This document shows, one piece after another, positions 1,827-56,115 of a DNA stretch of 64,000 bases (positions are counted from its first letter, which is position 1; each line of letters starts with the position of its first letter). A program made the translations under genes and the position numbers. The DNA is from Cantharellus purpuraceus (taxonomy: Eukaryota; Basidiomycota; Agaricomycetes; Cantharellales; Hydnaceae): assembly GCA_025174535.1 (NCBI GenBank), contig JALBUN010000034.1:704001-768000 (forward strand). The letters run 5' to 3'. Below the pieces are notes generated by a model. The model made no database searches. It was not told the origin of the DNA and worked only from the letters and a program-made list of their open reading frames with translations.

Positions 1827-4800
1827 CTAAGATTGCGCAGTAGCGAAAGCAATAGCAACAGTCTGCAAGGACATTAGTACAAGCAGATCATTCTTGTTGA
1901 GACAACGTACCTCGGAATGAGATAGAGAAACATGCACTGTTGTGATGTTTTTTTCTTGGGCAGCGCTTTTGGCTTCGCCATGCAAGGTGACTCGGGGGAC
2001 GCCCACGTCGTCAGGAAGGATCTCGATATCCCTCATCGCCGCTCCTGCCCCTTTCGACGGGACGCCCAAGGCCTTGAAAACGGCTTCTTTTCCAGCCCAT
2101 CGTGCAGCGAATGAGGCTGCTGGATCAGGTTGCGCACGACAATAAGTTTCTTCAACATCGGTAAAGTTCCGTTGCACGAATGTTGGATTGGACGAAGGGA
2201 CGGATGATATCAACTCTGTGACGGTGCTCAATGAGGCAATGAATGTAAAAGCCTAGACGAAATGAGCCTACCCTGATCAACTCCAACACCAGCTGTTCCT
2301 GTTCCCCGTTGCGAATTCAACAGTGTGGAGATGATATTGACGTTGCCTTCGTCTAGCAACCTCTCGGAAGGTAGTTTCTTGGGGTAAGAGTAACTACCCA
2401 ATTTGTCCAACTGTGTTCTTGCCAACGGATTGAGGAGCACAGGGGTCTCGAGGTCAGGTGTGTAAGGGGGATGATCTTTGACTTTGACTAGCGAGTTGCT
2501 CGTCATCATCTCTGTCATCGACTTGTACGAAAGCAGAGCGCGCGATCGGTTCAACTCTTTATACTTCTCATATCGTGCGGGCTCCACTGCAGCGAACAGG
2601 TGACGCGGATGAACGATGAGTGCGGACCCCCCAACCTGTCCGAAGCCGAAAGATGTCTGAGAAATGCCACCGTCAGGGAAGAATAACCATGCGAGGATAA
2701 CGCTGCACAAACCATCAAGCCAGCTGTGATCCCATCTGTGTGGATTGACTTTGAAGGGAACATCAGATATTCCCACTCGCGAAGCTCCTTGTCAACATTA
2801 TCGGCATTGCGGTTTCCTGGGATGATGCCAGAGTTCACGGTCTGACACAAGCCGATCATCTGCCATGCGGCCGAGCCACCCTTTGAATGACCGATCAAGC
2901 TCTTCTGTGCCATAACAGGGATGGCATTTCCAGGAGTTCTAGAGATTGATGTGAAGATATCGTGATAAACATGCGTTTCGTTCGCTTCCTGCAATTTACG
3001 ATGAAACAGCAGACGATACAAAGGAAGAAGTCATCTTACATTTGCCATCGTACTTGTACCGTGTATCGAAATAACGCCTTGATGACAGACCGCAGTCAGC
3101 ACAATCTACGGGGCTATTTGCATGGGACGAACCAAGATCATCGGCATTTAACCCCCAAACAGCCAGAGCACGACGGAGAGGAGCAACGCGGGAATCACTC
3201 CCTCGCAACATGCCGTAGGTCGATTGAGCAGCCTTCTCTTGGCGGACGGCTTCTTGTTCGATGTCGGCTTCACGCGACGCAACATAGTTCGGCTCAATCC
3301 TCTCTCCCTTATTCTGACGCAAGGCAACTTCCTCGCGCAACATCTCATGCTCGTTAGCGATCCATTGAGAGATTTGCCTCCGGCGGAATGCCATCTGTCT
3401 TGAACGATATGTAATATCAAGCATCGGAGAAGGTTGGGTTTCGGCAGCTTCACGGGCGATTGAGACTACTCCGCGACCTGGTGCTGGAACAGAGCGACCA
3501 GCCTTGTCTCTGAAGAGAATTTAGTGCAGTTCGTATGTAGAAACATAAAAGCTCAGCAGACGTACGTGGACGTCGAAGTGAATGCTACAACCCCCCTGAT
3601 GGGAGCACCCATCTCAAGCGCAAGCTTGGCATTCATTACAACTTGGACACCACAGCCTTGGCTTTCCATGAACTGTGATAAAAGTCAAAAGAGCCTGATG
3701 GAAGTAAAAAAAGACATACGCCTGCCCGAGTACTTGTCGTAGGCCTGGAGAATTCGTTTGGCTCACGCCCAGCAGCAAACTCTGTTATGGAGTTGCTGGT
3801 GGCCTTCATATTCGCAAACTCGTAAGACCCCTCCTCGACAAAGTCGTCGAAACCTCCAGCTAGCATAACCTTCGCTTTACCACTGATAATGGTGTCGCAT
3901 GCGATGTCGAGAGACTGCAAAGCCGTGGCACTAGATGTAAAGCAATTAATACGATACAAGGAGCCACCAATAATGAACATACCAAGCACCGACTGGGATC
4001 TTGATGGGACCAGCAGACGAGAGCAAGAGCATGTTGACCCATCCCGCAACAGTGTTGATAAATCTAGCCACGAGCTTTAGTAAATAACAATCAATGCAAG
4101 CAACCAGCACTGACGTCTCTTGCAATATATCCTTTTGTACTTCGATCTCCTCCCTACGATCTTTAAACATGGAGGCGATACTAGTCATTCCCCCCATACC
4201 ACTTCCGATGCTGGATCCGACTTCAGAGGGATGTACGTATTTATACAGTTCGTACGGGTCCGTGACCCCTGACATAATGAGAGCCTCTGCAGCACAGACA
4301 AGTGCCCACAGTGCTGTACGGTCGGTCTGGGCGATGATGTCCTCAGGGAGGCCATAACGACCCGCATGCCAGCCGGTGGGAATTTGCCCAGCGACAAGAG
4401 TGCTGAAATGGAATGCCTTCGGAACCTTGACAAGAGCCCCTTTCTTGAACTTGACGAAGCATTGCTCGCCATCTTTAGACCAAATGTCGCACTTGTCCCC
4501 ATGTTGGTACTTGAATTTTTGGGCCTCGTGCTCGGATACCTCAATGGGTTCGAGATCGTGGATGAGTTCAATCTCCTGATAATAGACCTTCTTCTTAGGA
4601 TCATAGCCATTATTCAGCTCAGGCTCTGTGAAACATCAAGTCAGTTACGAACGTGTATAAAAGGATTGTTCACAGACCGATTAAACGAACACCAGCATGG
4701 GCAAGAATATCCTTCTCGTATTTGCCTTTGATGTCCTTATCATCCACTGGTTCATTAGTCTTGCCATCGACCCACCCAACGTAAAGCGTTCCGTCCTTCA

Positions 4801-7800
4801 GGCGACCATCGAAATGCTTGATATAACCCATAATCCAGGCCATTTCAATGCAACCTTCGATAGTGAACTCCCCAATTGCTTCCATCTCCCAGCGAGTGCG
4901 AGAACTACCCCAGGGTCCGACCTCGGCGAAACCTGTGACAACAACGACCTGCTCTAAGTCAATGAGCCCACGCAACTGTGACAACTGCTCCAGAGCACTC
5001 TCAGAGTCCAACTTGGGGAATTCGAACTTGAAGTTCGCCCGCGGTGTGACTGGCACATTCTGGAGGACACGTTCAGCATCTGCACCATGAGTGACCTTGA
5101 AATCTGCGGAGTTGTCACGGGTAATAGCGCGGCGAAGTTCACTTTGCTGATTCAGTGTAGTGCGGATACGCGTTGTTATGTCTGCGAGATCTGCGAGACG
5201 GTCCATGCCACCATTTAAATCAGCCCAAATGGGCTCGACCTGCGTGATACTGAATAGTAACGGATGCATGAGGCCGAGGAGATTGAATGCCATCTCTTTA
5301 GCGGAGAACGTTCGTACACCATGGGTCTCAACTTGGTGTGCGACGATATTAGTCGCTGCCATGACACCTGTGCCTCGGGTCCAACTGCATGGGAGACAAA
5401 GAAATCATTATACATGGACATGTATATCAAGGGCTTCTAAGACGTACCCTATCACCGCTCCTGCAAGGCAGAGATATTCGCCCCAGCTTTCTGAGTTCCA
5501 TCTGTTAAAGAGAGTTTCGAGAGAAATCTTGGACTCCGAATACAACCCATCAGATCCAAACATGCCATGGTTTGGCGACAGTGGAAGAATAACTTGTGTT
5601 GGACGAGTAACAAACTGACGACTGGCCTTCTTCGTTTTTACAGCACCGAGAAGACGGAGGAGGTTGACCAACATAATACGATGAGCCAATTCGGACTTGT
5701 CATCAAGGCCATCGATCTCACGACCATTTTCGGGGACCGCCGCGAAGGGTAATATGTAGTCGAGATCCAGACTTAGTGTGGCATATATGTAATCCACTAA
5801 TGCTTCAACATCCTGCTTAGAGCCTTGATTGAATGGAACCACCGTAAGAGCAGAGCCTCGCGCGCCGACTTTCTGATAGATGTCCTGATAGAATTCGACA
5901 GTAGCACGACTATACCTGGATGTTGTAACGACAACATGTGCACCACCTGATAAAAGGCCTTTCAAAACTTCCACGCCGATGGAGCCTTTCCCGACACCAG
6001 TTAATAGAGCGTTCTTGTCCTTGAATGTAGTGCCAGACGTGGCAATTTCTGTTAGAATATCCAAGTAAACACTCGTGAGATTGCTGCTGTACTCCCATTG
6101 CATGCCAACGCGTCGCTTCAAATGGAGAAGGGGGACTTTGTCAGCAGATACTGATGTAATCCCAGTGATCTGAGGTCGAAGGAACTGAGAAGATGAGCGA
6201 CGGTTACGAGGAGTTGGCCCGATGCGAGGTCGAGGCTCGGGTCCTTTGCGTAATGAGTGTACCACACCCTCGTAGAGAGCCTTTATCCGACCCTTTTGTT
6301 CCTGGCTGATCCCGGGCTGCGATTTGACGACATTCCATAATTTCAGAACATCGTCCTGGACCTTCTGAATGTTTATAGTGCCCGAAATTGTGTCGCCGCT
6401 AGCCATTTCTTCGACATACGCTTCGAGTTTGCGGACGTTTTCGCGCACGACCTCAGAGTAAACAATGTCACCTTTCTCAGATATCTCAGTGCGTGGAGCG
6501 GTAGGAAAGGTCACTGTAGTTGTCCATTAGCTTTATAAAAAAGGTTAGATAGAAGACATACCATCTTTGTATAAAGGAGGCTGTCCAACAGCTTCGCGAC
6601 AATTGTCAATGAGCTGCTGTCCAAATTCCTTCGCCAAACGATAGGTCTCCCCCCGCGTCGGATCACATATGTTGACGTGATATTGCATGTACTCCAGTAA
6701 TACGGGGTCAGCACGATTCATGATAGCGATGCAGCGTGCCGTGATTTCGCGATCAACAGTGGTGAGACGACCGTGTATTATATCGTACCACATTAGAAGG
6801 GCATCCTGTCTGACCCAATTCCACGATGAATCGAAATGACGTGCTTTAAGCGGCTCAAACATGGGTTGGATGCCTTCGACGTACATATCACCATGTTCTC
6901 GACTTATATTGTCAAGCTTTGACTGCAGAGAGAGCATGCTTTCTTTTGCGGTATCGAAGGCGCGTTCGCCGGCGCGTGAGTCGCGATTGAGATACCGCAT
7001 ATAGACTTCGATTTGTTGGGCAGCGAAGCGTTCTTGTTCCGCTTGGAATTTCAGGAACTCTTCGCTGTTAATGACGGCACCTCCGGAGCTTCCACCTGCA
7101 GCACCACCCGCCGCACCTGACGACAAAGAGATGCCACTTTGCTGTGCATAGACTGCCGCCATGCTATCAAGCCATGCTTTTGCTTCTGCCTCAGACCCCA
7201 GTCGCTTTGGCGGCTCCAAGGTCAAACCGAGGAGAAGTAAACCGTCTGCGCGAGCCGGGCCAAGACCCCACGTCTTGGAAAGGTATGCCTTGATAGAAGA
7301 CATATTGAAGCCTCCAGGCATCTTTCCCCCTACCAAGCGTGAGATAAGACCCGAGGTATGCTTCCCAAGAGTGCCCGAGTAGTTGGATCCTAAAGCCGCA
7401 CCAAGCTCTTCAAGAGATAGCTCTTCTCCTTTCTCAGGGGCAGATGCAAATTCCAATTGGAGGTCACCCAAAATCTCATTCTGGAGCGTTGACTTGCCGC
7501 CGACCAGGTCCTTGATGCTCTTTGAAAGAGAAACCTCATCTATCTTCTTCTTCAACTTCTGTGCAACGATGGTGCGCAATGTATCCACAGCCTTGAGAGG
7601 CTCGTCAGCAATCGATGCGGCAGGGCCAGCGGAAGGTGCTGGAGCCATCGGAACAACGGGCACTAGCGAACTGGCGGTCGGCGGTGCAGGAATCGTGCTC
7701 GCATCGGGAGTCTCGGGAACAGCAGCTTCTTGCTCATTCTCAAACTGATAGTAAATCTCTTTGGGGTGTTTCGCATGGCAGAAAATGGCGCGAGTGCGAC

Positions 7801-47777: not shown

Positions 47778-49855
47778 CTATTTGGCTTGCCATGCTCTAA
47801 TACTTTCAACCACCCATCCTGCAAGTTTGATGACTTCCTGCTCGTTCTTGTTGCGGTCCTTGACGTGTCTCCCCTTCTTTCCCTTGCGATATGCCTCCTC
47901 CACCTTCTTAGCCCATTGTCCAGATTCATACTCATGACGTGAAAGTTCCACTCCGGTGCCTTCTGCCTCGAGCAAGAGCCGTAGTCCATGTTCTTCGACA
48001 AACAGTGGGCGAGGAACTGAATATACGCAAGATATTGAAGGAAATCTACCATGACCAAGAACCATGAAGACCCACCATAAACTAAAGGGGTCGAATTTAT
48101 TACACTTTCGGAAACAGTTCCGTACCCCTATGATAACATTTTATAGGTCATCATGTAGTCTGATCTAGCTTACCAGTTTACCCAAGAGAACATCAGCGAC
48201 AGCTGTAAGGTCTGGCATGTAAACATCTCGAGGCGCAATGTAGAAAGCTGGTGGGAGATCTTCTTCTTCGTCTCCTGAGAAAGACCAGTTTGAAGGCACC
48301 CCACATATTATCGCAATCCAGGATAGGGACGGTAGAAGGCTGGACTCTTCCAGTTCCTGGCATGCTGCGGGAGAAAGCATAGAATGTGTGGTCATGATCG
48401 CCGCATTCGAAGCTAGGGAACGTGTGCCGGCTGGTTCAATATACACCGCAGATGGCATTTTAGGACTAATTGAGCTGTGAGGTGATGCGGGATTAGTTGC
48501 AGGAGCGGGTGCCCCAGGAATAAATATCTTCGTCGAGCCTTTGCGCGAGAATGTTGTTATAGGACGCACTACATCTGCCACGGAATGTCTAGCGTCATTT
48601 AGTGGCTCAGAATCATGCACAAGGCTGAGATCGGAGCTGTACGTCCAATCATTAGGGTGACAGTCGGCTTCTTTAGGATAGAGAGGTGTTCTGGAGGAAC
48701 TTTTACCGCTGTACGGTCGTCGGATGGTCTGTCCACCAAAGCTAACCAAGAGAATGCGTGTCTGATCTCGTTCACAGAGAGCTTCCGGGATGCCGATGCT
48801 TTTAAGTAGTTTTAGTCTACCTTCACGAGTGTTGATACCGGGCGAGGTCGGCCGCACCAGGAGAGGCGCAAATTTGACAGTCCTACAAGGTTTCCAACGA
48901 TAATTGAGGTCGCGGTTGTTGTCCGGAGAAGGAGTACAAAGCGGGAAAGATATCGAAGGACACAGCTCAGATGTAGACAGTGCTAGAAGGGCGGACTCTA
49001 TTTCCGGTCGAAACCTGTTTGTTGATGGATCGATCCATGTTGTAGCTGGGAGTGAGGGGAACAGAAAGAAGGAAGGTATAGGGATGAAGCCTGGAAGGAG
49101 GAGCAACGTGTCCGCGTGGCTGTAACCTGCCAGCAACTGTGAGACGAGAGGCTCAAGGACGTCCAAGGGTATGGGTGTGTCATCCAGTGTCAAAATAGTT
49201 GGGTCAGATATCTGAGGCATATCACTGGGAATTCCAAGACTAGAATCGCTAACTTGTGTCCCGAGATAGGAATAGACCGAATCAAAAGTGAAGTTGGTGA
49301 CCAGAATTGACGGTATGCGAGCCATAGTCGCCGCTTCGCTGCGACAGCCATACAATCTTCCCGAAGCTCACAACCAAGAAACGACGTACCATGCTAAAAA
49401 GGCGGAGTCGCTAAGCACACAATCAATCCGTGCTGATGACAACCAGGCGACTTCAACAGCTAGCTTGTCTTCCTTTTCGGCGAGAAAGGTTTGAAGAACC
49501 TGAACACTTCTCTGTCGATCTACTTTATACCTACAGACGGAGTTATGGAGAAAGCAACAGTGTAATACACAGCGGTCAATGTACTCACGCAAGAGGCTGG
49601 GATATGATCGGATCAACCTCAGCATACCGATAATGCGCACCAAGCTCAATACATTCAGAGAAAACACGCGTCGGGGCAGAGGAGACCACATAAATTTCGG
49701 GTTTGTCTTTAAGAGACATCAAAGTGGATGCAAACGCAGAAACTCTCGTTGCATGTCCATATCCTACAAAGATCCAGGATGGGTTAATTGAGGCTAGCCC
49801 AGGACAACTCACCATGCCCTGAACAGTAGTAAGCCAGTCTAATTTGAGCAACCAT
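47778..49855 (-). CDS. Arabinokinase-like glycosyltransferase (GT1/GT28 fold, no kinase domain)
   Basis: The spliced N-terminus MVAQIRLAYYCSGHGYGHAT (joined across an intron) carries the GHGxGHATR motif of the glycosyltransferase-like N-terminal half of plant L-arabinokinase and of bacterial MurG-like enzymes. It continues with EIYVVSSAP, RIDCVLSDSAF, IPSILVTNFTFDSVYSYL, RILLVSFGGQ and, late, VPSNWSFSG. Joining two short introns downstream of ADVLLGKL gives GYGTVSESVIN, TPLVYVPRPLFVEEHGL and the family-like end GVELSRHEYESGQWAKKVEEA. The frame stops at 47778. A poorly conserved Ser/Pro-rich insert of about 100 residues (48440-48640) interrupts the catalytic region. No GHMP kinase domain follows, so it cannot be a full arabinokinase. 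The donor is probably a nucleotide sugar; acceptor unknown. The start ATG at 49855 lies at the 5' edge of the gene. Confidence 0.78.
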
Positions 49856-50155
49856 GGGAACTTTAGTAAACCGTCTACTGTGTATCTAGGCCGTTATGGA
49901 AATTACGTTCCGTAGAGGAGATTACGGCACAACCTAGGTTACTTGCGGTGCAGGGTACGCAAGTAACGCGTGACAAGCCGCGAGAGCGCGACTACAATAA
50001 ATACTTATGTTCGCAGAGACAGTGGCTTTTGTATCTTTAAACACGTCCAAAACCATCTGTATCCCCTTACAAACAATTCAGAAGTGTCTCATATGCTCAC
50101 CCACGAAAACTGGTCAGGCTGGATCTCTGGACGGCAAAGAACTGCCTCAGTACCT
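49856..50155. other. Intergenic 300 bp beyond the NUMT-like insert
   Basis: This segment separates the glycosyltransferase start from the AT-rich insert. Read on the minus strand it begins right after TTCAG with GTACTGAG, a good splice-donor-like sequence, and contains short frames such as CRPEIQPDQFSW. It does not contain a clear EGFGWxN trehalase motif. It may be the decayed remainder of the trehalase 3' end plus the glycosyltransferase promoter. Confidence 0.35.
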
Positions 50156-50284
50156 GAATAAAATTCTCATTTTTAAATGATATTTTTAACACACTAATAA
50201 GTTTAATAGATGTGTTAGTTGTATTATTGCCCATGTTATTAGCAGTGGCCTTTATGACAATCATAGAAAGAAAACAATTAGCAG
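50156..50284 (+). other. Mitochondrial nad1-like fragment in the nucleus (NUMT), inserted in trehalase
   Basis: A sharply AT-rich stretch with a 42-codon open plus-strand frame (50158-50283) and no ATG. Its residues read TLISLIDVLVVLLPMLLAV followed by [12 protein letters not shown]. This is the hydrophobic first helix plus ERK motif at the N-terminus of mitochondrial NADH dehydrogenase subunit 1, with TTA-rich mitochondrial-style codon use. Similarity ends abruptly at 50284. The next base, read on the other strand, is already intact trehalase exon. The left limit (about 50156) is set by the drop in AT content and a TGA. Orientation is opposite to trehalase. The alternative is chance similarity of a hydrophobic frame, but the co-occurring ERK motif, base composition and exact boundary argue against it. 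Confidence 0.72.
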
Positions 50285-52857
50285 ATTTCCATACTCAGCA
50301 TCAACGAGATGGGATAACTTCACAGCGTCAAACTGCCAAAGGTCGTCAGTGGGGCAAGTCTCGCTGGCGCTCAGATATAGTTACCTTTTCAGGAACAACG
50401 CCATTAAAATCAACAAATGCCGTAGTCATCCTGAGGTACAGAACAAATCAGCAGCCATCTGATTCAAACTACACAAAACGCACATATAAAGAAATCTATA
50501 AGCAAGACGCTGTGCGTCATCTAGATAGCCATAACGTTCTAATCCAACCCAGGCCATGATTTGATGGGGCGGCCTAAAGAGATAACCAAGAGTTTAACGA
50601 CAACCTATGTAATACTCATAACTCACCAAGCGTAGCTACAAGACAGAAAATGTCAACAACTGAGATGAGCATCAAACCGTCCTACTCACGGATAATCCCA
50701 TTGTCGATTTGGGCGATCGATGGTAATTTTCCCTCTTGACTCTTCAGTTCCAGACACTAACCCCCCAATCATTTCGAACTTCTTCAATGAGTGCACTCTG
50801 TACAGACTTCGATTACCAGTCCATAATTGGAAGATCTACGTACTCACACTAATTTCCAACATTGCTCCTCGCTCGCGCATCCCGCCCACAGCGACCAAAA
50901 TGCTGTCACGCTCTCATACAGACTTTGCTTTTCTTGAACCGTATCGTAGTCGAAATATAAGTTCTTAGCATCGTTCCACAGATACTTGTTGACCCTCTCT
51001 TTACGGAGCTCTGCACGGCGGAACCACTCCTCACTCGTTTGCATGCGCGACGTGGAGTATTCTCGCATTGGATTCGCAAATGCCTGAGGTGATGGTGGGA
51101 ATGGCGATAAGGAAAATGTCTCTTCAAGTTCCAGCGCATCGTCGAATACGTCTTGAATAGCGGTCGCAATGTCCATTTCATATTTATACAGAAGAGAGTT
51201 TAAATCAATAGTCGCCAAGTTTGCGCATCGCTTCTCAAAACGATAGGTGGTGTCGTGTCCAGATTCGCGCACGGCCCGGTCGTGTAGGAAGTATTCGTCA
51301 AGTCCGGGCTCTTTCAATGTCCCTTCGTTGTATTTTTCACTGAATTCGAGGACAGAAAGCCCGTGTTTGTCCGCATACGGCTGAAGAACGTGAGTGAAGT
51401 GTGTGGCCTCGGTCTCAGGTGGAATGCCAATGCCATCAGGACGGTAGCGAGAAAGACCTGTCTTGGGGTCGATTCGGGGTTGTGCAGTCCAGATCGTGTG
51501 GTACTCCTTGATAGCGGCCTGGATTGCACGCTTCAGCCAGGCTTTGTTATCCTCCAGCTTGTTACGATCTAATTGATTATAGATTTGAAGGGCCATGTCA
51601 GTGAGGAATGGTGGCTGGGTACGGCATAGGTACTGAGAGATAGGCTACAATTAACCAGCCAATCTACGTGTGATGGAAAGAAGGACTTACGTAGCTACGA
51701 CTCCCGTTTAAGATCTTGCCATAATGCTTGATCTCAAAGATGAAGTGTTCAACCATGCCTCTGGCCATGTCTACGTATCCATCGACTAACAGGCCTAATG
51801 AAATGAAGTATGAATCCCAGTTGTACAACTGACGAAAAACGGCACAGTTAGTATGCCAAGTCAATACGGCCAACAAAGAAAGGTGCACCTCATTGAACCT
51901 GGCGCCCGGAACGATAAATGGAATTCCTTTCAAAGTTCTTCCGCCGTCTCCGTCATCCACCTCGTCCATTGCCAGCGCGAGAATACCTGGCTTCGAATTC
52001 AAGGTCTTTACATATAGTGGATCGTCACAAGCTAGAGGTAGAACCTCAACTTCAAGGCCTAAGTGGGGCTTGTCTTTGGCGACTTGGCGATAGTACTGAA
52101 CCATCTTGGATTCACCACGAGGGACATATATGCGAGGATTTGTCTTTCCCGAACGGTTCTTGGGGTCAGCGCAAATGATTTCTAGCCCATCACCATCTAT
52201 GCGTCGAGTGAGGGAGTTCCAGAATGATGACCTTATCATGCGAGAAAGGCGCGAGACAGGGTTCTCGGTAAGACGTGCCTCATCAAGAACAATGCGCTTC
52301 CTGCCATGATCACGAGCCAGCGCGAGCTCTTGAAGGAGATTGGAGAGCATGTAGGTACCCTAGATTGGGGTCAACTTCAATCAACACGCCACAGCAAAAC
52401 TCATAACTGACTCGAACATCAAAGCTCTTGAAGCCATTACTAGTCGCAGTACCGAGAGACATGACCTTTGGTCCCGAGTCAGTGATACTGATTTGAAAAT
52501 CGCCATCGGTGTCCTCTTGCTCCAACACAAGCCGAATGGTCTCGTCGACGTCGATGAGAAAGCGCCTGGGACCGGCAGAGGATTTTTCGTCATGAGATAA
52601 TCTGCGGGAGCGACGAATGTCATCCTGATCGAACTGAGGACGTCGCTTTGGATTATAGCCGTGGAGATGCGCCTAAAGGAAGACACATGATGAGCGCGAA
52701 ACTCTACATGCTTTGGGAGGTGGGTGGAGTTCACACTACTGTAAGTCCTTGAACGAGTGTAGCGGTCGTTGCCGTAGTATGTGCTGGAATCGACATAGGT
52801 GTCGTTGAGTGGAGCGTCGTCGAAAAAATTAATGGTTGAGGGATGAACCGGGGCCAT
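50261..52857 (-). CDS. NTH1: Neutral trehalase (GH37), C-terminally truncated by an insertion; possible pseudogene
   Basis: Cytosolic trehalase hydrolysing trehalose to two glucose units. The N-terminus ([14 protein letters not shown]) is followed by a PKA-type site (SRRLSHDE) and the Ca-binding loop [12 protein letters not shown], as in fungal neutral trehalases regulated by PKA and 14-3-3. Catalytic-domain motifs are [44 protein letters not shown] (general acid Asp), RPNRQWDYP, joined to [11 protein letters not shown], and [10 protein letters not shown] (general base Glu). A 9-nt micro-exon at 50627-50635 is needed. The frame is intact up to HLVDAEYGN at 50285, then continues into antisense nad1-like DNA as LLIVFFL and stops at 50261. 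The normal remaining tail of about 45-60 residues, including EGFGWxN, is missing. Both catalytic acids remain, but loss of a conserved active-site segment makes activity doubtful. ATG 52887 is an alternative start. Confidence 0.85.
50627..50635 (-). other. 9-nt micro-exon of trehalase
   Basis: On the minus strand QWDYP ends ...TATCC before GTGAGTAG. A TTGTAG acceptor precedes CTACGCTTG, which is immediately followed by the donor GTGAGT. The next acceptor, TTTAG, precedes GCCGCCCCATC. Joining all three pieces restores DYPYAWPPHQI, the trehalase signature. The middle exon is therefore only nine bases (CTACGCTTG), phase 2 at both ends. Confidence 0.8.
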
Positions 52858-53481: not shown

Positions 53482-56115
53482 TCATAAAGGACTTGCATGG
53501 TCACTAAAATGATGCAACACTTCCCGTAGCTGCTTTCTTGAAATCTCAGCTTTGTAGAGGATTTCATCTACAGTTTTTTTGCCGTCGAAGTACTTATGGA
53601 TGCTGTTCGTACAGTCAGCCTATGAGGTCGGATGCAAGGATGGGTCACGAGAGACATACTATTCAAAACGCTTGGCTACCACGGGATTCTTGCCCATTGC
53701 CATACCCCTCAACCATCGCCGCTCCTTTGGCGTTGCCCTTTCCGGGTTTGATATTAGACTCGGTGCCTCTAGGTCATCTGGATCATCTGGATCGGACTCG
53801 GACTCACTCTCCATACTATACCCATCGCCATGTCTCTGGCCATCCAATTCCTGATTTCGCATCCTCATTCTGGACAACAATGATGAAGTGTCCGAGAAAC
53901 GACGATGCCGTTGCCAATGCTCTGGCGCCAATTCCGCCCTTGACCCTCGTGGGTTGTGATCATCAACAGAAGGTGGTGAACGAAAGTAACGCCTCAGCGC
54001 CATGTCCCCGCTGATGTGCATTGATGATTGAGAGGTGGGTGAAAACGGTACATCTTCTCCTGATTCATCCTCTACGACCTCTTCGTCGTGATCTGGCAAC
54101 GCCACCGAACGAAGTAAGCTCCGACTCAGGCTCTCGCTCGGGCTTCCACTATGGTTTTCCGCACTGCTCTTCCGCCGCCTTCCACGCGTCATTCGCTGCT
54201 GATAAGCGCGTTGGTGCTCGCGCGCTGTACGCATTTCTCGGCGTGTCGCTGTAACAAGTTGCTTGAGTGTGGGGGTAGCAATTAGTCGGAAGCGCATATG
54301 AAGCATGACGAGGAGGTCACGCTTGAGTAGCCAAATGATGACATTCTGATAAATGGCAATGTTTTCTTTGGACTTCACTACGGTTTCAAAGAAATTGTCG
54401 GGTGAAGACGAAAGCCTGGAGAATATGAGGGGCAGAGGAGGTAAAGTTGTAAATGCCTTGGCGAAATCAGTAGTTAGCTCAGATATACTGAACGGAGTTA
54501 GCACAACGTTACAGAGACATAGAAAGCCAACATACGGTGTTTCTATGCGCATGGGCAACGTGAAGATACTTTTTAGACTAGACCGTACAAGGTCTACAAC
54601 CTTGGCTCGTCTACGCTGCACCAGGTACCTCACGGTAGGAAAAACTTTCTGGTGCAAATCCCAGTCTAAAAGTGATGCCATATCATTGATGCTGACCACC
54701 CATGGTGTTAGAGTCCTTCAAGAATAGCAAAGACTTTCCGGTCACTCACGATACAAAAATGGAGGCAGTATCCAAGAAACGCGATACCCCCTCTGCAAAC
54801 TCACGCTCATCCTTTGTAAGCCCAGGCCTATTCAAGTTTTGCAGTGGATCTGCTTTGCTATTCTCATCCCCTGGGTCTACATCGAGGAGTAAAAGTGATT
54901 TCCATGGCGTGAGTGCTGGAAGCTTCCAGCCAAAAGAGAGCTCGGGTCCCCAATCAGCATAGTCATCGTCTCCACTTTGTTCTTCCTCATCATCATAGCC
55001 ACCTTTCCCCGAACGGCCAAGTGAGGATGCAGATGGGTCTGAAGGGTCAGCGCGGATGAGCAAGTCCAAGAACGGAGGAAGTTGAAGGTCTAGTGAAATA
55101 TTGTGAAGTGTCAAACGCGCAAGGGAATTGGCACGAATGGATGCATAGATACGCTCGAAAGCACGTGCCAGAGAGGAATGTTGCAAGCATTGTACGACAT
55201 AAAAGTCATACGGGTTGCCTGTTGATCTGTGTTTGAAAAGCAATAGTGTTAAGGCAGAGGATACTCACCATTGGATATGCAGTGCTCTTTGAGCTTGACT
55301 AACATGTCCCACTCGTGTTCGACGTATTTGTGTAGCACTTGCTCATTGAAAAGTACCGCGGTCAAGGGGAAAGCTACAGTTTGATAGATAGTGTCAAAGT
55401 ATTTGTTAAGGTTTCCAGACGCAGAAGATGATGGGTCTGGCAAGTCCATCACGAACACGACGTGGAACAGTTGCAGCATGCTCTGAGAAGAAGTCTCAGT
55501 ATTGACTTTCAGTTGAGCCCCTTCCTTCGCTCCTTCAGCAAAATCCTCTGCTGTAGCATCTTCTGATGGTTTCTCCCATCTGAAACACCAGTTACCTTGC
55601 TCGTCGACACAGACTGGATGCCCAATAAATGCAAGGTCGTCCACAATGAGCTCAAACTTTTGATGACAATTGGCAATCCTCGGACAGAGAAAATGTGCTA
55701 AGAGATCCTCGTTGAAGCCAAGAACAGTCTCGTATTCGTCAATATCCTCGTTGATGTGCAATGTTCCATGATCCCCACGCTGATTCACAGGGGAGTGTCT
55801 GCCACCACTAGAGCTCCGCCCAGAAGAAGTCAAGGAGTGGGAGCGATACCGCTTTACGGTCGGTCGCTGCCACTCATATTCAAAGCGACCTCCGTCGTGA
55901 TGAGGAAATGATAAGCGTTGGAAGTTATCAGATGGCACTTCCGAATATGCAGCAGCACGATATGGCGCGTCAACATGTTTGAAGTTGGGCTCGGGGGGTG
56001 GACGTGGTCGAGCGAGTCTGGGGAATGCGCGTGGAGACGATGGCCACCTGAAAGCTATAGTCTGATCACTAGCGGAGGATGTCGCGAACAAAATCGCGAG
56101 GAGAGTCTGTGCCAT
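53482..56115 (-). CDS. NPR3: Nitrogen permease regulator 3 (SEACIT/GATOR1 subunit)
   Basis: Npr3 with Npr2 and Iml1 forms the GAP complex that restrains TORC1 at the vacuole when amino acids are scarce. The start MAQTLLAILFATSSASDQTI and FRWPSSP match the Npr3 longin-type opening. Later come NEDLLAHFLCPR, KFELIVDDLAFIGHPV, LFHVVFVMDLP, FNEQVLHKYVEHEWDMLVKL, ISLDLQLPPFLDLLIR and LSFGWKLPALTPWKSLLLL. Toward the end are LLDWDLHQKVFPTVRYLVQR, a charged Ser-rich insert, KYFDGKKTVDEILYKAEISR and KQLREVLHHF. After HHFSDH the frame ends ASPL and stops at 53482, without the Tyr/Leu..FLHP ending I would expect. A GC-AG intron or a lost end are possible explanations. The insert rich in Asp, Glu and Ser (residues about 620-760) looks disordered. 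Confidence 0.87.

Follow-up and report, generated by a model that had tools for sequence, protein, structure and literature searches.

What is a short AT-rich patch doing against the coding exons of a neutral trehalase gene in Cantharellus purpuraceus, and what became of the gene when the patch arrived? An earlier note had read this patch as a fragment of mitochondrial nad1, captured as a short NUMT at a double-strand break inside the trehalase gene and possibly young. We followed up this reading in the window, that is, the whole stretch of 64,000 nucleotides, and in the 40.15 Mb assembly to which it belongs. Positions are those of the window unless a contig or another locus is named.

Identity and setting of the AT-rich patch

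The patch and its borders comprise the following features:
50158..50283, + strand: NUMT, nad1 codons 2-43 without start codon, from protein matches to mitochondrial nad1
50284..50284, no strand: right junction base G, fitting both nad1 and trehalase, placed from the relatives' proteins
50157..50158, no strand: left junction, last flank base A followed by ATA (nad1 codon 2), placed from the relatives' proteins
49856..50157, no strand: nuclear flank on the far side of the insert, 47% GC, without visible trehalase tail, from base composition and assembly search

The codons that align with nad1 span 50158-50283 (42 codons, 126 bases), and bases 50156-50157 lie outside the alignment. The AT-rich patch with an open frame of 42 codons was borne out: the frame is present with both peptides previously quoted from it, and GC content is 25.4%, compared with 48.5% for the 64-kb window. 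Among all 63,875 stretches of 126 bases that the 64 kb contain, just five, with starts at 50154-50158, have a GC content this low or lower.

Searched against 5.77 billion proteins, the nad1 segment gave a best E of 1.6e-9, with the two best matches 84% identical over 83% of the query. The query was padded, so that full-length nad1 proteins were eligible as candidates, with scoring over residues 1-46 only. E<=10 was obtained for 658 of 660 candidates, and all 120 matches listed of these 658 bear PF00146. The nad1 matches listed include Schizopora paradoxa, Pyrrhoderma, Inonotus obliquus, Rhizopogon and Pisolithus, which we take to be basidiomycetes. In 84 of the 120 relatives listed the motif ERKQLA ends at residue 43, which indicates that the insert corresponds to nad1 codons 2-43, the start codon being absent. 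Twenty positions are near-invariant (at least 118 of the 120 relatives listed), and the segment keeps the residue at all 20; since these relatives were chosen by their likeness to the fragment, they make the positions look somewhat more conserved than they are. Solved complex I ND1 chains match the segment independently (best E 0.0022), and the full nad1 protein of a relative locates 50158-50283 in the assembly as its sole match (E 4e-11). At the level of sequence comparison, the patch is confirmed as a piece of basidiomycete mitochondrial nad1, with a match well above chance, and the nad1 identity proposed earlier holds; the parentage of the insert is judged from relatives' proteins.

A stretch this short and hydrophobic could also be a chance open frame or part of a nuclear membrane-protein gene, and Pfam alone gives it 13.2 bits, under the cut-off of 27. 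We consider this reading refuted, with practically no probability left to it, by the collinear nad1 match over 42 codons starting at codon 2 (E 1.6e-9 and 4e-11), the conserved residues kept, and the GC minimum. A retroposed spliced nad1 exon, considered for an insert made of codons 2-43, was set aside: the first 30 listed relatives all continue as nad1 past ERKQLA, and no intron at codon 43 was seen in them.

The insert is interior to a contig of 1,580,578 bases and, as assembled, is continuous with nuclear DNA on both sides: a trehalase exon on one side and a single-copy flank of 47% GC on the other. Together with its flanks it matches only itself in the 40.15 Mb assembly, and the far flank 49860-50157 also occurs once. 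A gene starts near 49855, about 300 bp from the insert on the far side.

Profile searches of the assembly with PF00146, PF00115 and PF00361 found no mitochondrial contig. The PF00146 search overlooked the nad1 segment at 50158-50283, which indicates that short NUMTs escape such family searches, and we give no NUMT count. Pieces of cob on contigs C23 and C17 nonetheless indicate that other NUMTs exist in the same genome. On C23, a larger NUMT at about 94620-95840 (L015 about 4620-5840; ends judged from GC) carries cob exon 1 in a GC-poor patch. The exon sits in an open frame of 261 aa whose end matches LAGLIDADG weakly (19.3 bits against a cut-off of 25). Over 143 residues the exon shares 98.6% identity with a protein from a 71.5 kb contig, and a copia gag frame lies nearby (L015:6151-6804). 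On C17, a cob piece occurs twice, 46 kb apart (C17:238514, L016:2509-2673; C17:284526, L017), each copy lying in one of two duplicated segments that are about 4 kb long and about 89% identical; this is probably a NUMT copied along with its surroundings.

The trehalase gene and its missing end

The host gene is made up of these features:
50285..50332, - strand: last surviving trehalase exon, ending ...HLVDAEYGN, from translation
50385..52857, - strand: nine other trehalase exons, open throughout (52857-52735, 52672-52412, 52359-51889, 51828-51691, 51632-50848, 50797-50690, 50635-50627, 50573-50484, 50430-50385), from domain matches and relatives, splice sites by eye
50261..50284, - strand: seven codons LLIVFFL (the first includes base 50284) and a TGA stop, antisense nad1 in the trehalase frame

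The exon said to begin directly at 50285 is a genuine trehalase exon; with the trehalase exons on the - strand and the nad1 frame on the + strand, the antisense arrangement and the undamaged mitochondrial frame were likewise found as described. In a gene model predicted from sequence, with splice sites picked by eye, the ten spliced exons give 693 trehalase codons without a stop, up to ...DAEYGN. The pieces match both the calcium-binding domain (PF07492, E 2.9e-17) and the catalytic domain of neutral trehalase (GH37). Identity is 92.8% to Gautieria morchelliformis and 92.5% to Ramaria rubella, two close trehalase relatives, both Gomphales, that are 91.4% identical to each other. By this likeness the host is a Gomphales-like basidiomycete. 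The catalytic domain is incomplete: the PREGFGW segment is absent after EYGN, and the trehalase frame crosses 50285 into the insert, where it reads LLIVFFL and then TGA at 50263-50261.

Two further observations concern the gene model and its neighbourhood. The exon at 50627-50635 is a micro-exon of nine bases, CTACGCTTG, required to read QWDYPYAWPPHQ as the relatives do. An NPR3-like reading frame (PF03666, E 9.7e-26) adjoins the trehalase gene at 53659-54717 on the - strand.

The trehalases of Gautieria and Ramaria extend 74-79 residues past EYGN (74 in Gautieria), PREGFGW included. Among the 120 trehalase relatives listed, EYGN is found in 116 and EGFGW in 114; of the six without EGFGW, two have EGFAW, two are records ending earlier, and two have a tail lacking that word. 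Conservation of at least 95% is reached in 24 of the first 45 tail columns, a share similar to that before the break (389 of 686), and alignment of the relatives' tail with yeast Nth1 extends to residue 738 out of 751.

We did not find this tail in the far flank (49856-50157), which gives no sign of an alternative last exon there, and in the 64-kb window the best match had only E 0.19, at 31780-31691, about 18 kb off. A trehalase query of 90 residues matched only the site itself in the 40.15 Mb assembly (residues 1-21, E 0.011); since 16 of the 21 matched residues belong to the true exon, a short exon is detectable by such a search. A protein query with the tail only, a search without a positive control of its own, gave no match in the assembly. 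Relocation of the tail was also sought with a degenerate EGFGWMN pattern allowing at most two mismatches, which returned C17:520336 and C23:1799251; the reversed control pattern also returned two sites, and we take both matches as chance. Near the first, another frame reads by eye like cytochrome P450, and around the second no trehalase-like reading was seen.

The trehalase gene ends at the insert and does not resume on the far side. The earlier picture of an insert inside the gene, with trehalase on both sides, has to be abandoned, as the last 74-79 codons of the relatives are absent from the window and assembly searches. The broader proposal of a short NUMT captured at a double-strand break in a coding gene keeps its nad1 identity and its contact with the exon, but insertion alone missed the loss of the tail; since searches of the window and of the assembly did not turn up the tail, a loss needs explaining as well.

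A second trehalase as a possible replacement was also considered: a PF01204 profile search of the assembly gave 14 matches, including the window trehalase, a diverged gene on C10, and weaker ones on C22, C30, C3 and C23. The C10 gene is a second GH37 trehalase, at about 345689-347742 and beyond, with its own GFGWTNG tail (its last exon reads QAGFGWTNG).

Many basidiomycete isolates are dikaryotic. The insert could be real but heterozygous, carried by one nucleus while the other holds an intact trehalase omitted from the assembly. The assembly contains neither a second copy of the window trehalase nor the tail, as expected if one haplotype was dropped, and the upstream trehalase exons have no stop. 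We hold this as a tentative possibility; it is a version of the explanation preferred below, does not contradict it, and overlaps with it in probability. A second nucleus, or sister strains, may thus carry an intact copy.

Changes in the surviving exons could bear on how old the loss is. At columns at least 90% conserved, the host trehalase has 12 changes, against 5, 6 and 6 in three intact relatives, the third of which itself belonged to the reference set; the corresponding counts are 6 against 3, 2 and 2 at columns at least 95% conserved, and 2 against 1, 1 and 1 at columns at least 99% conserved. Private residues number 7 in the host and 6, 1 and 15 in the three relatives. The excess of changes at conserved columns could fit an older loss, but the private residues do not show it, and we draw no conclusion of relaxed constraint.

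Junctions, origin and age of the insertion

Base 50284 can be read in two ways. As nad1, it would open residue 44, which is Ala (codon GCN) in 108 of the 120 relatives listed; as trehalase, it is the C of a Gln codon on the other strand. At the left junction, A precedes ATA where the nad1 ATG would give G, so no microhomology is seen. Judged from the relatives' proteins, microhomology would amount to at most 1 bp on the right and 0 bp on the left. No target-site duplication is visible by eye in the flanks of 50158-50283. As signs of end joining we took no or short (1-7 bp) microhomology together with no target-site duplication.

We consider it highly probable that a short NUMT was end-joined at a broken chromosome end in the neutral trehalase gene, with loss of the 3' end of the gene. 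A double-strand break would have occurred in the 3' part of the gene, and a fragment of about 126 bp of mtDNA covering the start of nad1 would have been joined at the break by non-homologous end joining. The tail would have been lost, which for a gene built like that of Gautieria means about 225 coding bases including the stop, and the antisense nad1 would now give the trehalase frame seven codons and a stop. We infer that the tail was lost in the same event, that the repair was by end joining, and that the event was fairly recent. Counted against this explanation, a loss of about 225 coding bases is unusual beside primate NUMTs.

The same arrangement could come from a chimera of the library or the assembly, in which mtDNA became part of the contig by ligation or misjoining while the true 3' end of the trehalase was dropped. 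mtDNA is abundant in sequencing libraries, the insert has no decay, and the trehalase is otherwise open, all of which a chimera would fit. However, this would call for artefacts at both junctions, where the overlap does not exceed 1 bp, and for an artefactual loss of a 3' end beside a gene 300 bp away; a misjoin based on overlap requires shared sequence, and the far flank is nuclear-like and single copy in the assembly. The other NUMTs in the same assembly also speak against a chimera, though they do not vouch for the nad1 insert. A chimera thus appears distinctly unlikely.

The NUMT could instead be filler at the breakpoint of a larger rearrangement, the far flank having been brought from elsewhere and the tail left elsewhere or lost later. 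The far flank has no visible trehalase sequence, and a review, PMC2820518, records a translocation breakpoint carrying 41 bp of inserted mtDNA. The tail, however, was not found elsewhere in the assembly by protein searches (the pattern search gave the two imperfect matches), and the far flank is single copy there; we regard a breakpoint filler as unlikely.

If a NUMT was end-joined with loss of the 3' end, the predicted product of 700 residues would presumably be inactive or impaired, because both PREGFGW and the C-terminal portion of the catalytic domain are missing from it. Conversely, the antisense mtDNA might now serve as a working, expressed 3' end of the trehalase (LLIVFFL and a stop), fixed in the species, so that neutral trehalase would have been lost or remodelled naturally in a Gomphales-like fungus; we find this quite improbable.

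The 20 near-invariant nad1 codons hold 47 nonsynonymous sites with zero changes, giving a 95% upper bound of about 0.064 substitutions per site if the donor mtDNA carried the common residues. The suggestion that the insert is young stands as this bound, under the same condition.

If real, the locus would provide a datable case, in a mushroom-forming fungus, where mtDNA capture went together with the loss of the last part of a conserved metabolic gene, and would mark a strain in which intracellular trehalose breakdown is possibly impaired. It would also be relevant to the proposal, made from primates, that NUMTs guard breaks against deletion (PMC2567098).

Comparison with known trehalases and NUMTs

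Among the matches listed from the open-licence literature, no title dealt with the nad1/trehalase locus or with a NUMT in a fungal trehalase. The host protein can be compared with yeast Nth1 (GH37, PDB 5jta and 5n6n), with which it shares the calcium-binding and catalytic domains up to ...DAEYGN; in contrast to Nth1, it lacks the counterpart of what follows Nth1 residue 693. According to PMC9523730, catalysis by Nth1 depends on residues in a flexible 'lid' loop.

As for NUMTs, PMC2567098 reports no deletion in 49 of 90 primate insertions, and mostly small deletions in the others. The blunt or 1-bp junctions seen here fit the end-joining patterns described there; however, those 90 insertions are in non-coding DNA with no or mostly small deletions, whereas here about 225 coding bases were apparently lost. 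In the human reciprocal translocation with the 41-bp mtDNA insert (PMC2820518), mtDNA is filler at the breakpoint, and here too it lies between sequences that were perhaps not neighbours before, but no partner breakpoint was found in our case.

The closest parallels are short exonic NUMTs in human disease genes, given in PMC2820518 as 72 bp in GLI3, 93 bp in MCOLN1 and 36 bp in USH1C, one of which creates a stop. As with the nad1 insert, tens to about a hundred bases of mtDNA lie in a coding exon, and GLI3 also gains a premature stop; unlike these, the host here is a fungus and the 3' end of the gene is missing on the far side. Exonic capture of a NUMT is thus an ordinary, known kind of event, and its apparent coupling to the loss of the end of the gene is the unusual part.
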